Below are positions 27,650 to 44,563 of a stretch of 64,000 nt of DNA, piece after piece. Under the pieces are notes generated by a model that was not told the origin of the DNA, did no database searches, and saw only the letters and a program-made list of their open reading frames with translations. Source of the stretch: Encephalitozoon hellem ATCC 50504 (taxonomy: Eukaryota; Microsporidia; Unikaryonidae); assembly GCF_000277815.2 (NCBI RefSeq), contig NC_018480.1, positions 124,001 to 188,000 on the forward strand, given 5' to 3'. Positions within the stretch are counted from its first letter, which is position 1. Each line of letters begins with the position of its first letter. The position numbers and the translations under genes are program-made.

Positions 27650-28456
27650 TCACAATAAATTGTTGTGTTCACCTTCCGAACTATCAGAGCACAAGTCTAG
27701 CCACCTGCCCTCCAGATTTCTCCCTTCCCCAGAACTTTCTTTCTCAACATACACACCATCAAATATGTAAATCTTCTCTGAGCTTGCACCTTCCCTTCCA
27801 TTGGAATCATTCAAAGACTTGCCTCCAAATGGGTTGTATCTTTTAACCTTCGGTTCCAGAGGCCTATGGCTGCAGGACTCTACATCGCTCTTCATGCAAC
27901 TTTTGCACAGGTAGCATCCATTCCCACAGAAATCATTGTTCCGCTTCAGCATCATTATTAAATAGGATCTTCTGTCTTCGTCCATGCCTTCAATGCTCGC
28001 CCTATGCACCACTAGTTCCTCGGGCCTAAACCTCATATACAGCGGAGAGCTAGCCAGAGACTTCAAGAAGCACGCCTCGTTGATATCGCACGGCTCTCCA
28101 TATGTATCACACTCTCCTCCGCAATATGTAAAGCTCTCTATGCACATAAAAAACCTCTTGCTTTCAGAACGGTATCCATAGTGGAACTTGTCAACAGTAA
28201 TGTAGCATCCTCTTATATCCTCAACCCCGCAGGCTATCTCCTTCCCAAACACATCGATAGACTCCTTCGTCAGAATGCTGTCAATGAAATGCCTAGAATC
28301 AGACACACACACTTCAAATCCCCCGTCCTTTCTTTTCTTTCCAATCTCTATCATTTGTGCATTAAAAGATGTTTGCTGTCCTCTTCTCCAATGCCAGTCG
28401 TATATCTGCTCGTAAATCGTTTTTTCAATCCAGAAATCTCGGAGAAACAAAAGCAT
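27650..28456 (-). CDS. Candidate TPP1/TPZ1 (shelterin) OB-fold protein with Cys cluster
   Basis: The 268-residue protein is not an obvious housekeeping homologue. Residues 8-110 follow the TPP1 OB-fold pattern: FWIEKTIYEQI (human PWIRDLIL), VSDSRHFIDSILTKESID at 51-68 (human VSDGTHSVRCLVTREALD), IRGCYITVDKF at 81-91 and a closing RFFMCIESFTY at 101-111. A cysteine cluster follows (C177, C181, C184, C187, C195, H197) that could bind zinc. The C-terminus is Ser-rich and acidic. TPP1 recruits telomerase and pairs with POT1 at telomeres. The call rests on alignment by eye, so confidence is moderate. An Est3-like or another OB protein is the main alternative. The gene converges with RPB9. Confidence 0.45.
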   Translation of the reverse strand: MLLFLRDFWIEKTIYEQIYDWHWRRGQQTSFNAQMIEIGKKRKDGGFEVCVSDSRHFIDSILTKESIDVFGKEIACGVEDIRGCYITVDKFHYGYRSESKRFFMCIESFTYCGGECDTYGEPCDINEACFLKSLASSPLYMRFRPEELVVHRASIEGMDEDRRSYLIMMLKRNNDFCGNGCYLCKSCMKSDVESCSHRPLEPKVKRYNPFGGKSLNDSNGREGASSEKIYIFDGVYVEKESSGEGRNLEGRWLDLCSDSSEGEHNNLL

Positions 28457-28542: not shown

Positions 28543-31083
28543 TTACTGGGTTACACAGTATATGTAGTCAGAGATACAGATCCCTTGTGCCTCCTCAGAA
28601 GGATGGGTGCACATGACCCTGACAGGATCCTCATTCGTCTTCATCAGAAGAATCTTTGTTAATGCATGGACAAAGTTCGACTGGATGAATCGCTTGAGCA
28701 GGCGAGCTCCATAGGTCGAGGAGTGCACCTTCTCAATCACATCGTCCTTCACCCGGTTGGAAATCTCAAATGATATGTTTTTGTCCTCGAGCTTTTTCTT
28801 TAATTGCGACATCTGGTATTCAAGAATCTTGTACATGCTTTCTCTATCAAGCTTGTTGAAGTATATCACATTGTCAATGCGATTGACAAGAGGAGGGCCA
28901 AACCTGTTCAGAACCAACCTCTCAATCTCCTTCTTATCGTCTTCGCCAAGCTCAGAAGACCTTAGTATTATCTCCTGCCCAAGGTTGGACGTCATAATCA
29001 GCACGCAGTTCCTGAAATCCACGACAGTTCCCTTTCCATCAGTGACACGCCCTTCGTCCAGCAGCTGGTATAACACATTCAGGACAGTCTGGTGCGCTAG
29101 GTCCACCTCGTCTAGTAGAATCACGCTGTAGGGCTTGTTCTTAATGGGCTCGGTAAGCGCACCTCCCTCGTTATATCCTACATACCCTGCAGACGCCCCA
29201 ATCAGCTTTGTTATGCTCATCTCATTTCCATAGTCGCTCATGTCAAGAACAAGCATGTTCTTCTCGTCGTCAAACAGCTCCATGGCAACCGCCTTGGCAA
29301 GCTCCGTCTTTCCAACCCCGGTGGGCCCAAGAAGAAGAAAAGCCCCAATCGGCTTATCCTCCCTGCTCAAGCCTACTCTGGACTGTAAAATGGAGTCCAC
29401 AATCGCATCCACAGCATGGCCTTGCCCAAATATGCGCCCCTTTATCCTCGAAGACATCTCCATTAACCTCTCATTCTCCTTGATGGTTAGCCTCTTCACC
29501 GGAATCCCTGTCCATCGACTTATAACCTCTGCAACATTGACAGGAAGAATCACCTCAACACTCTCAAGCCTCTTAAGCTCACTCTCAATCACAGGAATCA
29601 CATTGGTCTTCAGATCATATGCAACATACGTGTCTCTTTCCCTCTCAGCTTGCGCAAGCCTTAGCTTGGTATCCTCCAATCTCTTCTTTAGCTTCTTCGC
29701 CTCAATTATGTGTCTTTTTTCCTTCAGATACGCCTCCTCCATGGGCTCTATGCTTCTCTTCACCTCCTCTATCTTCTCACACACACTCTCAAGCCTTTTC
29801 ATCGTTTGCTCGTCCTTCTCCCGAGCAAGGTCAATCTCCAAACTTGCCTTCTCAAGCTCAAGAGACCATGCCTTTGACCTTGCATTCAGGATCTCTTGAG
29901 GCTCGCTCTCAAGCGCTATCACCGCGCTCGCACAGGCCGTATCTATCAGATCAATTGCCACATCAGGAAGCCTTCTGTTCGAAATGTATTTCTTTGATGA
30001 GTTTGCAGCATACACAAGAGCACTGTCAGCTATCTTGACCCCATGGTACGCCTCAAGCCTTTCCTTAAGCCCTCTGAGCATCGTGATCGAGTCTTCAATA
30101 GACGGTTCGTTCACAACAACCTGGACAAACCTCCTTTCAAATGCGGGATCCTTCTCAACATACTTCCTATACTCATCATGCGTTGTTGCCCCAATGCACT
30201 TGATAGTCCCGGCAGCAAGTCCAGGCTTCAGCATATTTGCCGCATCCATCGCCCCATCGGTCTTTCCAGCACCAAGAACAATGTGGATCTCATCGATAAA
30301 CAAAATAACCCCAGGAGTCGTTTCAGCCTCCTTGACTAGGCTCTTCAGCCTTTCTTCAAAGTCTCCTCTGTGGGCCGTCCCTGCAACCATAGATCCAACA
30401 TCCACATTGTATATCTTTGCATTTCGAAGCGTAGGAACCTCTCCATTTGCTACCAGCTGTGCAATCCCATTCACTATCGCCGTCTTCCCAACACCCGGCT
30501 TTCCAACCAATATTGCATTACTCTTTGTCTTCTTAGACAGTATCTCAATCACCTGCCGTATCTCCTCGTCTCTCCCAATAACAGGGTCAAAGACATTCCG
30601 CCTTGCCTGCTCAACCATGTCAACAGCAAATCTCGACATCACATCCGTTGCATCGTCGGAGTTTCGGGAGTCAAACTTCTTGTTCCTCGACTGCTCCTCA
30701 ACCCTTTTCTTTATGTCTTCAGAATTCGATATCAGCTCCTTGATGCTCTGAACAGTAAGAAGTTGCAGCACCAATGCATTCACAGAGACATAGCTGTCTC
30801 TCCCACTCTCAGCACTCATTATAACCCTTGCAAGCGCCTCTCCGATCCGCGGCTCCGTGCAGTTGTACTGCTTTGCAAACCCCCCTATCCTTCTTATGAG
30901 CTTGTTCTTGATATCCTCCCTCTCATCCAAGCTTAGCACAGAGTACAACACCGATGTTTGGTCATTCAAGATAACCTTCAAGAGATGCTCCGGCTCGACA
31001 ACATTGTTGCTGTTTGCAATGGCCTCGTTCAGGCATGCCTTCAAAGCACTTTGTGCTCTTTCCGTGTATTTCTTCGTAGACAT
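28543..31083 (-). CDS. HSP104: HSP104/ClpB protein disaggregase
   Basis: The 846-residue AAA+ chaperone has an N-terminal Clp repeat domain (residues 1-140). The first ATPase has GKPGVGKTAIV near residue 195 and VILFIDEIH. A middle coiled-coil domain of about 110 residues follows (EIDLAREKDEQTMKRLE and onward). The second ATPase has LLGPTGVGKTELAKAVAMEL and VILLDEVD. Together with Hsp70 it pulls proteins out of aggregates. No presequence is present, so it is probably cytosolic. The acidic C-terminal tail of yeast Hsp104 is missing. The ATG is used rather than a GTG two codons upstream. A possible heat-shock element lies about 70 bases upstream. Confidence 0.96.
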   Translation of the reverse strand: MSTKKYTERAQSALKACLNEAIANSNNVVEPEHLLKVILNDQTSVLYSVLSLDEREDIKNKLIRRIGGFAKQYNCTEPRIGEALARVIMSAESGRDSYVSVNALVLQLLTVQSIKELISNSEDIKKRVEEQSRNKKFDSRNSDDATDVMSRFAVDMVEQARRNVFDPVIGRDEEIRQVIEILSKKTKSNAILVGKPGVGKTAIVNGIAQLVANGEVPTLRNAKIYNVDVGSMVAGTAHRGDFEERLKSLVKEAETTPGVILFIDEIHIVLGAGKTDGAMDAANMLKPGLAAGTIKCIGATTHDEYRKYVEKDPAFERRFVQVVVNEPSIEDSITMLRGLKERLEAYHGVKIADSALVYAANSSKKYISNRRLPDVAIDLIDTACASAVIALESEPQEILNARSKAWSLELEKASLEIDLAREKDEQTMKRLESVCEKIEEVKRSIEPMEEAYLKEKRHIIEAKKLKKRLEDTKLRLAQAERERDTYVAYDLKTNVIPVIESELKRLESVEVILPVNVAEVISRWTGIPVKRLTIKENERLMEMSSRIKGRIFGQGHAVDAIVDSILQSRVGLSREDKPIGAFLLLGPTGVGKTELAKAVAMELFDDEKNMLVLDMSDYGNEMSITKLIGASAGYVGYNEGGALTEPIKNKPYSVILLDEVDLAHQTVLNVLYQLLDEGRVTDGKGTVVDFRNCVLIMTSNLGQEIILRSSELGEDDKKEIERLVLNRFGPPLVNRIDNVIYFNKLDRESMYKILEYQMSQLKKKLEDKNISFEISNRVKDDVIEKVHSSTYGARLLKRFIQSNFVHALTKILLMKTNEDPVRVMCTHPSEEAQGICISDYIYCVTQ

Positions 31084-31231: not shown

Positions 31232-31480
31232 TCACTTTTTCAAATAAGCCGGTACCATTAGGCCCAGCATACATCCTATCACAAGAAGCACAGCGCGGCC
31301 CTGGGCTGGGGATCTAATGGCTACAGCCATGAACATCGGAATAAAGCTGTATATGAACAGCGATGGCATCGAAAAGACAGAAATGATGGTCATAATAAGC
31401 GTCATGGATGTGTATGCCAAGAACGGTGTTTCGTCCACATACCTCCCGTAGTCATCTCTTTGGATTTTGTAGCAAGCCAT
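31232..31480 (-). CDS. Small membrane protein, probably Asterix/PAT10 (WDR83OS family)
   Basis: The 82-residue protein has a short polar N-terminus and two to three hydrophobic segments (about residues 20-37, 41-54 and 62-80). The middle stretch SFIPMFMAVAIRSPAQGRA resembles the Asterix phrase YCSFISFANSRSSED, and the final VIGCMLGLMVPAYLK resembles its end SISAVVMSYLQNP. Asterix forms the PAT complex with CCDC47, which shields polar membrane segments during insertion at the ER. The match is by eye. The ATG is good and the gene is divergent to DPH5 with 36 bases between starts. It could also be an unrelated small membrane protein. Confidence 0.55.
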   Translation of the reverse strand: MACYKIQRDDYGRYVDETPFLAYTSMTLIMTIISVFSMPSLFIYSFIPMFMAVAIRSPAQGRAVLLVIGCMLGLMVPAYLKK

Positions 31481-32341: not shown

Positions 32342-35300
32342 TTAACGAGACACCTTTCCTACGAACCCTGCTGCTGGCTGGGCAGTCCCAATTCCTGATG
32401 CGTTTTTATTGCCAGGGAATGAATGAGAGAATCCTCTCATTGTATGGTCTGGCTGTCCAGGCGAAAGTCTCACGGGTGTGCTGCTGGCGGACGATGGTGC
32501 CTTAACCCCAGGCTTTAGTGGATTCTGCTGACTGCTTGGAACTGCAGGCCCTGGCGTTGCGCTAGCCGATGCTCCTGCTCCTGCTTGACCTGGCCGGTTT
32601 GAAGATCCACCTTGTCCTGTCTGGTTGGGGGATCTTTGGCCTGCCTGATTCGGGGCTCCCTGCCTTGGCTGGTTCGAGGTTCCTGCCTTACCAGAAGCTG
32701 GCCTTCCACTAGATGTCGTTGGTGTTGGATTCCCCTTAAACTTCACCTCTCCAAGAACCTGTGTCTTGTTAGGATCGTTCGGTACGGATACAGAGACTTG
32801 TGTTGTTCCTGTAGGCGTGTTCTTGGTTTCAACCTGCTCAATAGCCTTCAGGTTTGGAACCGTCATTTGCTCTAGTACCTCTCCACCAACTGTGTTGGGT
32901 TGATGAGTCACCGTTGATATGTTGTTGAATATCATCTCTGTCATGGTCCCCATGTCAATCTTGCTGTCAGGTAAGATCCCTGCTATCTGATTATAGAACT
33001 GTGTTGCAGAAATGTCCTTACGAGCACTAGGAGGCGCTTGGTTGTAACTTATCATCTCCTTGATTGCCGACTCCGGGAGCTGCGAAACCATGTTGAGGAA
33101 TGTTTCTGTGGAAATATTCATACTCCTGGCATAGCTTGCAGCCTTACTTATCATGTTGTTTTTAACCTGAGACTCAACGGTGTTGGATGGGGACATGTAC
33201 TCGTTGATCAACTCCTTGTTGTACTCATCAACTATCTCTGCCTTTTCCCCATCAACCTTTCCATTGAATGCATTCTTCTTGGCCACTGCCTTCCCATTCC
33301 CTTCCTCTCGGACCTTCGAAAGAACATTACTTATGAAGCTTTCCTCAGAACCCTTCATAGAGTCTGTTCCAGCCATGTCCAATGGAACTTCCGGTGTCTT
33401 CTTCTTAACTTCTTCACTAACTGCACCAACACTAGAAGGCCCAACATTGTTGAGACTTTCAACCGCCTCATCCATTGTCATAATCTCAGGAACCCCGTAT
33501 GGTGAGGAAACCTCAACAAATTTACTCCCATCAGGATTTGTATAGACCTCTGTGGTGATTCCTTCCAGGTTCCTTGCCTTCTTCTCGTCATCAACCCTGG
33601 ACTTCATCTCAGAGGCTGCTGCCACCTCACTTTCATGGGCTAGCCTTCCATTTATCGAAGGCCTCATGTCCTTCACAAACTCATTCCATGGCGTCTGCAC
33701 AAGCTCCCCATCTTCAATCTCCAACTCAGATGCCTGCCCAATGTTCAGGCTTTTTTCACCGTTGGTCATCGTAGACGTTGGAACAGGATCCAGAGGGGAG
33801 GGAAGAGGTAAGGTAAACCCACTAGCATCGGCCTCATAATATCCGACACCCTTGTCAAGGCCAGGCCTCTCTCCAGTATTGTACTTGTGCTCAAGCAGTG
33901 AGGTGTCGAGCTTCTGCTTGTCCATCAGCCCTTTTGCACTTTCGGGATAGAAGACCTTTCCTTTGTTGATCTTCAACGACTTTGCCGCCTCGGAAATATG
34001 AACAAATCCATTTTCCATTTCAATGACATTCAGCCCACTTTCGACATTCGTCCCAATTACCTTATTCCTCACCTGGTTTCTTCTGTTCTTTTGTCTACTC
34101 TGAACAATAACCTCCTCCTCAGACTTGGGCTCCTCATTGCTGAACCCTTTCAAAGGAAGCTTCATCTTCCCTTCGGTGATCCCAATTCTACTGGCTGTAG
34201 GTGGAATAACCTCCTTGACATCGAGATTAGACGTGGCCGTCTCCTTTAGCAGTGCCTCGATGTTTGACTGGTGTGCCATCTCCTCCTCATACTTCTTATT
34301 TAGCTCCTCAAGGTCAGATCCTACAACATTAAGCCCTGCATGTGCAGTCGCCATGTGGTCAACCGCCTCCTTGATCGAGTCATTCATCCCCATAGGCCCA
34401 AGTATCTTCATCACCTCGGCTTTCCTCGCCTCTCTCTGTTGGTTCAATGCCTCTGCTGCAGCACTTTCAGCCTCCTCCCGTGCCTTTCCTGCCTGTAGTA
34501 CATCTCCTGTGTTCTCAAGAACCCTTGTAAACGCATTCTTTCCTTCGTTCTTAATAATCCGCTGCTCTGCCGCCTTTGCAAGATGCTCCTCAGCTGTCTT
34601 CACCGCATTGCTCTCGTTGGCTTCTTTTTGGGCTTGTATAGCCTTATTCTGCATCTCCTCGTTCTTACGGTTCATGTCCTCAATGGCTTTCTCCGTCGAA
34701 ACCTTCGAAAGGAAGTTAAGAGCATTTGTCTTACGTCCACTAGGCCTGAGCTGTGCCTTGGAATTCTCTAGGTTCTGCTTGGCCTTTGCAAGGTCCTCTG
34801 CACTGGAGGCCGCAACATCCGTTAGAATCCTCTCTTGGACAACAGGGTTACCCAGTCCTTCCATGCTTGCCAAGTCTTTCAACGTTTCTGCCTGGTTGAG
34901 CTTCTGAAGCGCTCGCATTATAGGCTCGGTTATATGCTTCTGGGTTAGATATTTGCTCAAGTCCTGGGCTCTATCAAGTCTCTTCTCATTAATCTCCTCC
35001 TGCTTCTTCTCCAAAACCTTAGGCCTAAGCCCAGAAGGCGTTTGAGCCATCTCCCTCGCACTCGCCTCCTCAATCATGGTTCTGTCTGCTGCATTTTGTG
35101 CTGCAACATGCCCTCCACCAGCAATTGCTGCAGATCTAGTTGCATGCTGATAATTGAGATCAGTCAAGCTCACTGCCCTTCCGTATGCAGCCTCGGGCGA
35201 CAATCCCTTCGATAGACCCTCATTGTACTTGTCAATCATGAATCCAGCTTGATATGCCTCAAACTCCGCCCTTTCCACAGGAGAACCTTTTTCAACATAC

Positions 35301-36196
35301 TCATCATACACCTTCTTTTGAAGCATGGCCTTGTCAGCATCAGAAACAACATCCTTGGCATTCGTTGCCTTTGCTAGATTAACCTGAGGAATGTACCCAG
35401 GATTCAGAGGCGGCTGAGACATATCGCTGGCCCTCTTCATTCTTAGTGCTTTCTCAGCATTGGCATCTCTAACCTCGTCAGCAACTCCCTTGGCTACAGG
35501 AATCGAATGTCCTGCCGAAATCAGTGAAGAATATGCAGCCTCTGGCGTTAAATCATCTATCGGAGTTTCGTTCTGGGTCAACGCATCAATCTCGGCTTGC
35601 TCCTTGTTGGTTCTTCCAGTAGCGACTCCTCCAGAAACATATGGTTCTTCTGGGCTTGAGTAATCCGGCGGTGCTGTCACATCAAGAGGTACTTCAGAAG
35701 CAAGATCTAGGGACGATGGCATAGCAACAGGCTGGCTTGTAACGGCCGGCGTAGAATTAGAGAGAATGGAGTTTCCTACATCCTCGGCAACATCCGGGGT
35801 TATCGATCCATCATTATACAGCATATCGAGAGCATCAAGATTCCCGTGTGCTGCCATGTTTGCTAAATCCTTTTCGTCGTGCGTCAGGTTTTCGGGACTG
35901 TTCGCATGAGTGCTAATCATATTCCGAAGTATCCTTGCATGGTTCTCGTTATGGGGCCTTATGCTTCCTCCATATCCCCTACGAGCTTTTCGATGCCCAT
36001 GGTGACTGCTGCTACTATGACTGTCGTCATGGTGGTTATGAAGCTTCACCTTAACACGGGCATTCCGCGTAGATCTATTTCCATAGTCCATCCCTTTTTT
36101 CGTGCTTCCCTCCTTACTGTGATGGACATCATGGGAGCTTAGTCTTGCCTCTCCTCGTACCATCACGTTATAGAGACAAAGTAGAAACAATAGCAT
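32342..36196 (-). CDS. PTP3: Polar tube protein 3 (PTP3)
   Basis: The 1284-residue secreted protein begins with a signal peptide ([17 protein letters not shown]). After it there is no cysteine, which fits PTP3 and its dependence on detergent alone for solubility. A basic His-rich stretch follows (residues about 45-75), then a long acidic, Ala/Glu/Lys-rich helical core, and a C-terminal 140 residues rich in Gly, Gln, Asn, Pro and Ser with degenerate xxGQ repeats. PTP3 is a structural or scaffold component of the polar tube, through which sporoplasm enters host cells, and is made during sporogony. E. cuniculi PTP3 is slightly shorter (about 1256). No ATG in frame lies upstream. Confidence 0.96.
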
Positions 36197-40076: not shown

Positions 40077-40364
40077 CTACTCCTTGCTCTTAAACTGTTC
40101 CATGTTCTTCAGGAACTCAAACTTCGGGTTGGATTCTATAGCCCTATTGATAAACTCAGGAGACATCCTTGATGAATTCTTCTTTTTAGCCTCTCTGAGT
40201 GTGAGCTCCACTATCTCTGTGAGAAACATCTCAATGGCTTTGCTCGCAACAACAGGTACAGAAGCACCTATCTTTCCTATATCCTCGTTCAGCTGCATTA
40301 TCCTTTTTAACCTTGATATGGGGAATCTCGTTAACTTCCTCTTTTGAGACTCTTGTCTAGGCAT
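40077..40364 (-). CDS. BUR6: NC2-alpha (DRAP1) histone-fold transcription repressor
   Basis: The 95-residue protein is a bare histone fold: TRFPISRLKRIMQLNEDIGK, then ASVPVVASKAIEMFLTEIV, then the third helix MSPEFINRAIESNPKFEFLK. Human DRAP1 has the same order, for example RIKKIMQTDEEIGK and PVIISRALELFL. It pairs with NC2-beta to hold TBP on promoters and block TFIIB. HAP5/NF-YC is the alternative, but the FDFLK-type end favours NC2-alpha. Its ATG overlaps a 20-base block also found upstream of NOT1. The stop faces EF-2. Confidence 0.87.
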   Translation of the reverse strand: MPRQESQKRKLTRFPISRLKRIMQLNEDIGKIGASVPVVASKAIEMFLTEIVELTLREAKKKNSSRMSPEFINRAIESNPKFEFLKNMEQFKSKE

Positions 40365-43891: not shown

Positions 43892-44563
43892 ATGCAACTG
43901 AAAAACATTAAGAAAGGCCTTTACAGACAAAGAGCTCATGCGAATCCGTTCAAGGACAGTAACATTGTTATTCCTTCAAGCCCACAGTCTGTTGACTGGT
44001 CCTCCTACTTTGAGTCGAATAAAAGGCCGGATTTCGTTGACATAGGATGTGGATACGGAAAGTTTCTTATGAAGGTTGCTGAGAAGAACCCAGGGCATAA
44101 TGTACTAGGGCTTGAAATTAGAGACAAAGTGTGCGAGTACGTTAGAGCAAGCATAGAAAACCTAGGGATTCCAAATGCTGGGGTCATGAGAACAAACGCG
44201 TTGATCTTTCTGCCCAATATCTTCGGTGGAGGTCAGCTGTCCAAGATTTTTATCTTGTTTCCTGATCCCCACTTCAAAAAAAGGAAGCAAAAGGGGCGCA
44301 TTGTGTGCCAACAGATGATGGAGATTTATGAGTATTTGCTGAAGAACAGAGGGAGATTATATATATCTACCGACGTGGAGGAGTTGTTCGACTACATGGT
44401 GGGTGTTATTTCAGCACACAGAGGATTCAGGCCGCTAACCGAGGAAGAGATGAATGAAGATCCACTATTCTGCATGACTTCCAGGGATACGGATGAAGCT
44501 CTAAGAGCTGGGGTCAAGACAGGGAAGGTGTTTTCCAAGGTTTTTGAAATAAAGAAAGATTGA
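43892..44563 (+). CDS. TRM8: tRNA (guanine-N7)-methyltransferase TRM8
   Basis: The 223-residue enzyme has the SAM motif DFVDIGCGYGKFLMKVAE, LGLEIRDKV, and the catalytic segment FILFPDPHFKKRKQKGRIV, all close to TrmB/Trm8. It makes m7G46 in the variable loop of tRNAs with Trm82. The ATG at MQLKNIKKGLY is used because CCCC lies just upstream. Fifteen further codons upstream are open, starting only at TTG. The next gene's frame touches its stop codon. Confidence 0.95.
   Translation: MQLKNIKKGLYRQRAHANPFKDSNIVIPSSPQSVDWSSYFESNKRPDFVDIGCGYGKFLMKVAEKNPGHNVLGLEIRDKVCEYVRASIENLGIPNAGVMRTNALIFLPNIFGGGQLSKIFILFPDPHFKKRKQKGRIVCQQMMEIYEYLLKNRGRLYISTDVEELFDYMVGVISAHRGFRPLTEEEMNEDPLFCMTSRDTDEALRAGVKTGKVFSKVFEIKKD

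Follow-up and report, generated by a model that had tools for sequence, protein, structure and literature searches.

Does a parasite with a very reduced nuclear genome keep the shelterin subunit TPP1/Tpz1? The question is raised by a gene in a 64,000-nucleotide stretch of contig NC_018480.1 (positions 124,001 to 188,000) of Encephalitozoon hellem ATCC 50504, referred to here as the window. A sequence-only reading had put this gene forward as a candidate TPP1/TPZ1. In the ORF (open reading frame) list of the window it runs from ATG to stop in a single open frame:

27650..28456, minus strand: gene for a 268-residue protein, very probably TPP1/Tpz1 (Pfam family PF10341; M1 invariant in all 12 rows of the family alignment)

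We put the probability at roughly 0.9 that the gene encodes the Encephalitozoon TPP1/Tpz1, a shelterin subunit with one OB fold. The basis is a Pfam match, a predicted OB fold, conservation in Encephalitozoon and Ordospora, and the co-occurrence of POT1 and TERT. The identification is sound, and it is not new, because PMC10158259 made the same assignment in 2023.

Family membership and fold

We found 11 relatives of the window protein. A profile search with 12 rows returned exactly the set found by an earlier search and added none. The relatives are four Encephalitozoon proteins, two Ordospora proteins and the proteins P0005-P0009, and the closest is an E. hellem protein with 96% identity. The database names of three (from E. 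romaleae, E. cuniculi and Ordospora colligata) start "Shelterin complex su...". No relative was found outside these 11 with a tool that requires shared 5-residue words, so relatives elsewhere may have been missed.

The window protein matched the Pfam TPP1 family (PF10341) with 22.7 bits (E 9.2e-5), the sole family at E ≤ 10; there was no NCBIfam match at E ≤ 1. All 12 family members matched PF10341 at E ≤ 1 (the nine of alignment A1 plus relatives P0009-P0011). The curated cut-off of 26.5 bits was exceeded by 7 of the 11 members with scores (27.8 to 36.8 bits; the score of P0001 is not among these), and precomputed Pfam labels place PF10341 on 9/11 relatives, P0005 and P0011 being without it. 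Weak extra families in the members were Q4D059-like (one, E 0.036), DUF5334 (one, E 0.2) and ciliate TEBP-beta (two, E 0.22 and 0.24), the last a relative of TPP1. Searches of the E. hellem genome covered 12 contigs (2.25 Mb). In six frames PF10341 matched at one place only, under the cut-off, and neither RPA1 nor POT1 of this genome matched it at E ≤ 5.

An OB-like barrel was predicted at about residues 30-113 in both structure models, with mean model confidence (pLDDT) of 68-93 across eight 10-residue blocks from residue 31 to 110. An OB fold within residues 1-115 had been set beforehand as a test of the assignment, and the barrel falls there. OB folds dominate the structural matches listed, both by Foldseek and, for both models, by VIA-align. 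TPP1 and Est3 structures take Foldseek ranks 1-5 and, with the first model, VIA-align ranks 1-6; in that model the leading VIA-align alignments extend to residue 140 or further. Human TPP1 (ACD, PDB 2i46) shares with the window protein the OB fold, a WI near the N-terminus, an SD..H run and an aligned fold beyond the barrel, but identity across the aligned fold is only 14-18%.

Several results weigh against the assignment. The score of the window protein lies under the curated PF10341 cut-off, as do those of three other members (P0003, 26.2 bits; P0005, 17.6; P0011, 20.3). The Pfam match would be partly circular if the Pfam model includes microsporidian sequences, as it might. The structural margin of TPP1/Est3 is thin: RPA70N and other OB folds follow closely (9.6 and below, VIA-align, first model), and in the second model TPP1/Est3 were tied with unrelated OB folds. 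A phmmer search of the window protein against PDB gave nothing at E ≤ 10, and a 9-row profile found no TPP1 there, its lone match being 1zu1 over the Cys segment (E 0.2, not significant). The profile of residues 1-148 scored human TPP1 at 4.1 bits and whole E. hellem RPA1 at 5.0, and 1/2000 shuffles reached 7.8 bits with the same profile. With hhalign, human TPP1 scored 19.0 and the N-terminus of E. hellem RPA1 18.4 (probability 2.0 and 2.07), and 4/300 shuffles exceeded the human TPP1 score. Direct sequence comparison with human TPP1 is thus neither significant nor discriminating. In the comparison with human ACD/TPP1 and Est3 that the sequence-only reading proposed, these were the top structural matches, with a tie in one of the models, and the human sequence gave no significant match.

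The better of two alternatives is that the gene encodes an Est3-type telomerase subunit, a stable part of telomerase rather than a partner of POT1. Est3 of budding yeasts (2m9v, 9swn_C, 6q44) has the same OB fold and is among the top Foldseek matches; 2m9v and 9swn_C are also among the VIA-align matches for both models, and 6q44 is Foldseek rank 5 but outside the VIA-align best 50 for either model. A small size, with little beyond the OB fold, defines Est3. Its chains have 170-180 residues, whereas the window protein has 268 and a conserved tail (residues 252-262), and we consider this alternative improbable. Less probable still is another OB-fold protein, RPA70N-like or Stn1/Ten1-like, that matches Pfam by chance: such folds are near in score and the human TPP1 sequence comparison is not clearly ahead of RPA1, but the genome has its own RPA1 elsewhere, with a match to Rep-A_N and none to TPP1, all 12 members match TPP1 and none matches Rep-A_N at the thresholds used, and the published Stn1 and Ten1 have different tags, on chromosomes 3 and 8 (PMC10158259).

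Telomere partners of the TPP1/Tpz1 protein

The sequence-only reading had proposed a search of the same genome for POT1, and we found it. POT1 is a 399-residue ORF on contig C5 (L003:1459-2658) that matches PF02765 with 34.7 bits, over the cut-off. A second OB domain is only hinted at (POT1PC, E 0.02), and the C-terminal part bears cysteines (CRACG...KCTC). The POT1 ORF had no match in PDB by phmmer at E ≤ 1. Human POT1 has an HJRL insert in its third OB domain (OB3), by which PMC9333443 sets it apart from fission yeast. The 399 residues of the E. hellem POT1 probably leave hardly any space for such an insert, and its Cys-bearing C-terminal region is a possible minimal TPP1-binding OB3.

TERT is an 813-residue ORF on contig C9 with RNA-binding and reverse transcriptase domains. 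About 240 residues lie ahead of the RNA-binding domain, and one stretch has a weak alignment (9.9 bits, i-Evalue 1.9) with human TERT, over residues 77-165 of that chain, so that a TEN domain is possible. A second, weak match to the telomerase RNA-binding domain lies on contig C2 (L006:1501-1659; C2:121668-121826). Its score of 20.6 bits, with E 5.9e-4, does not reach the cut-off and its frame has five stops, so it is either chance or a remnant. Profiles of Stn1 and TRF had no match in the genome, but their controls were silent too, so these searches are uninformative on absence.

Together, PF10341 in all members, the TPP1/Est3 fold ranks, POT1 and TERT in the genome, and the published assignment bear out the candidate TPP1/TPZ1. 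If the protein acts as TPP1/Tpz1 does in human and fission yeast, the residues that follow the barrel (about 141-187) would bind the C-terminal part of POT1, and the POT1-TPP1 heterodimer would sit on the overhang of the Encephalitozoon telomere repeat, TTAGG (PMC10158259). The barrel would contact TERT and bring telomerase to the end. A TEL patch is described in fission yeast (PMC4936895), and the candidate stretch for it here, residues 67-80, contains the invariant F70, C76 and D80. Fission yeast Tpz1 is a partner of Pot1, and the POT1 here is also short.

Because this very reduced nuclear genome retains POT1-TPP1, the pair may approach an irreducible telomere end complex. TPP1 (268 residues), POT1 (399) and TERT (813) make an attractive minimal set for biochemistry. 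Retention of shelterin may not be phylum-wide, since Microsporidia sp. MB is reported without shelterin and CST components (PMC13174016); the passage of PMC10246852 considered here holds nothing on shelterin in microsporidia.

Conserved segments, the Cys/His set and the C-terminal tail

Alignment A2, in which two of the 12 rows share 96% identity, divides the protein into conserved segments and variable linkers:

28406..28456, minus strand: N-terminal segment, residues 1-17 (invariant M1, F4, L5, W9, I10, Q17; alignment A2)
28118..28369, minus strand: predicted OB-fold barrel, residues 30-113 (confident strands in two models, PF10341 match over the same residues, fold comparisons)
28253..28303, minus strand: run SDSRHFIDSILTKESID, residues 52-68 (exact in 1/12 members; S52 and D53 invariant)
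28037..28132, minus strand: residues 109-140, with the final barrel strand, FTYCGGECDTYGEPCDIN and a short helix (mean column identity 0.79; in the top fold alignments)
27905..28006, minus strand: candidate for a metal site and for POT1 binding, H151 ... C177-x3-C181-x2-C184 (H151, C177, C181 in 12/12; C184 in 11/12)
27668..27700, minus strand: C-terminal motif LDLCSDSSEGE, residues 253-263, apparently SUMO-interacting-motif-like (C256 in 12/12; D258 and S259 nearly invariant)

Over stretches picked after inspecting the alignment, mean column identity was 0.79 (residues 1-17), 0.44 (18-29), 0.70 (30-113), 0.79 (109-140), 0.48 (141-187), 0.53 (203-213), 0.46 (226-239) and 0.69 (252-262). Linkers 188-202, 214-225, 240-251 and 263-268 had means of 0.11-0.30. 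The OB fold had been placed at residues 8-111. Conservation continues past residue 111 as CGGE..D..G.P.D.N, to about residue 140.

The six frames of the window have the run SDxxHxxxxxxTxExxD, offered by the sequence-only reading as a link to TPP1, just once, at residues 52-68 of the protein. It is not a family signature: the exact run is in 1/12 rows, that of the window protein itself. Within it S52 and D53 are invariant and H56 is in 11/12 rows, but T63 and D68 vary. For the flanking W-I and I-R-G positions also noted in that reading, W9, I10 and G83 are invariant in 12/12 rows and I81 and R82 vary, conservatively. Judged by eye, residues 1-17 probably correspond to the stretch with RPWI in human TPP1; hhalign pairs the WI stretches of the two proteins (human TPP1 as the PDB 2i46 sequence), not significantly.

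A Cys/His cluster had been noted at residues 177-197. Its first part is conserved (C177 and C181 in 12/12 rows, C184 in 11/12), but C187, C195 and H197 are present in 2/12 rows, those of the window protein and of the E. hellem protein with 96% identity to it, and the invariant His is H151, outside that range. Segment 141-187 has four invariant residues, and its model confidence is low (too low for metal-site geometry). Because C76, C84 and C112 are also invariant and C116 is in 11/12 rows, other ligand sets are possible. No known zinc finger was found in Pfam for any of the 12 members. To our knowledge, neither the H/C/C/C set nor the C-terminal motif is known from human TPP1. A zinc site has reportedly been described in a paper on the Tpz1-Poz1 structure; nothing here relies on it, and no paper on such a site was among the matches listed.

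All 12 rows have the tail motif, [LIVM][DN][LIMF]C and then Asp/Ser/Glu (9 by a strict regular expression composed after inspecting the alignment, 3 by eye, as LDLCSDSSE). The expression had no match in the window ORFs that are 200 residues or longer (48 ORFs with 18,846 residues, antisense ORFs included). SUMO-interacting motifs consist of a short hydrophobic core followed by acidic or serine residues, and the conserved tail resembles such a motif. The genome has a SUMO-like gene on contig C7 (L017:1471-1779, minus strand) for 102 residues ending in VGGWSW. Its top three PDB matches are multi-ubiquitin chains, ranked by summed E-values with no single stretch passing; SUMO-2 comes next at 1e-18, followed by more SUMO chains. 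A zf-MIZ SUMO ligase gave no match in the genome at E ≤ 1, in a search where only 1/14 controls matched, below the cut-off. Contig C12 has a 77-residue ubiquitin-like protein ending in LRGG (L018:1501-1734, plus strand), which looks like NEDD8/Rub1.

More speculatively, zinc bound by the H/C/C/C set might stiffen the segment that would bind POT1. Equally speculative is that the C-terminal motif might bind SUMO on a partner and so replace the TIN2/Poz1 bridge. It is conceivable, though we regard it as doubtful, that this is a stripped-down TPP1 with a SUMO-interacting tail in place of the TIN2/Poz1-binding C-terminus, forming a POT1-TPP1-only end complex that is held by SUMO or linked through it to CST, and with a POT1-binding segment formed by a lineage-specific H/C/C/C zinc site. 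In fission yeast Tpz1 carries SUMO at K242, a modification that promotes the association of Stn1/Ten1 (PMC4197044); the window protein has a SUMO-binding-like tail instead. If our proposal is true, the polarity of SUMO is reversed relative to fission yeast, where SUMO sits on Tpz1.

We found no description in the literature of an H/C/C/C metal site in Encephalitozoon Tpz1 or of the conserved C-terminal tail motif. The main-text passages covered of PMC10158259, the sole paper with both Encephalitozoon and Tpz1 among the matches listed, describe neither the domains of Tpz1 nor a metal site or C-terminal motif in it. These two conserved features are the remaining interest of the gene.

Gene order and the published Tpz1

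E. hellem Tpz1 is published as GPU96_11g22140, one of the telomere proteins tabulated for three Encephalitozoon species, with best scores of TM 0.71 and E 5.9e-7 in its row (PMC10158259, 2023, Table 1). We matched the window ORF to this tag by gene order, not by sequence. Locus tags step by ten, and the same paper gives histone H2A as 11g22210 and tRNA (guanine-N7) methyltransferase as 11g22260, which predicts landmarks 7 and 12 genes after Tpz1. The window landmarks stand exactly there:

40077..40364, minus strand: 7th gene, histone-fold protein, NC2-alpha-like (published H2A, GPU96_11g22210, by gene order; PDB and Pfam comparison)
43892..44563, plus strand: 12th gene, methyltransferase (PF02390, E 5.4e-45), taken by tag order as tRNA (guanine-N7) methyltransferase GPU96_11g22260

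The genes counted begin at 28543, 31232, 31484, 32342, 36422, 37431, 40077 (7th), 40473, 40835, 41754, 42810 and 43892 (12th). The count depends on treating an 82-residue ORF at 31232 as a gene; the other eleven come from the list of longer ORFs. Fifteen further ORFs in this stretch were left out because they overlap those retained, and beyond 34000 the list held only ORFs of at least 95 residues, so a small gene there could escape the count. By gene order, the window ORF and GPU96_11g22140 are one gene, with the same assignment.

The genes flanking it are RPB9-like on one side and ClpB-like on the other. The 40077-40364 product matches PDB chain 4wzs_A, "ECU11_1470 protein" (E 3.1e-47), the ECU prefix presumably standing for E. 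cuniculi. NC2 alpha (1jfi_A) matches at E 3.8e-13 and H2A chains at best at 3.4e-6 (an H2B-H2A fusion) and 5.8e-6 (H2A), among the best 60 of 220 matches. Because the NC2 alpha chain matches far better than the H2A chains, the product resembles NC2 alpha and the published H2A label may be wrong. The minus-strand gene at 32342-36196 encodes a 1284-residue protein with no Pfam match at E ≤ 0.01 and, by eye, a signal-peptide-like start; we presume that it is probably polar tube protein 3.
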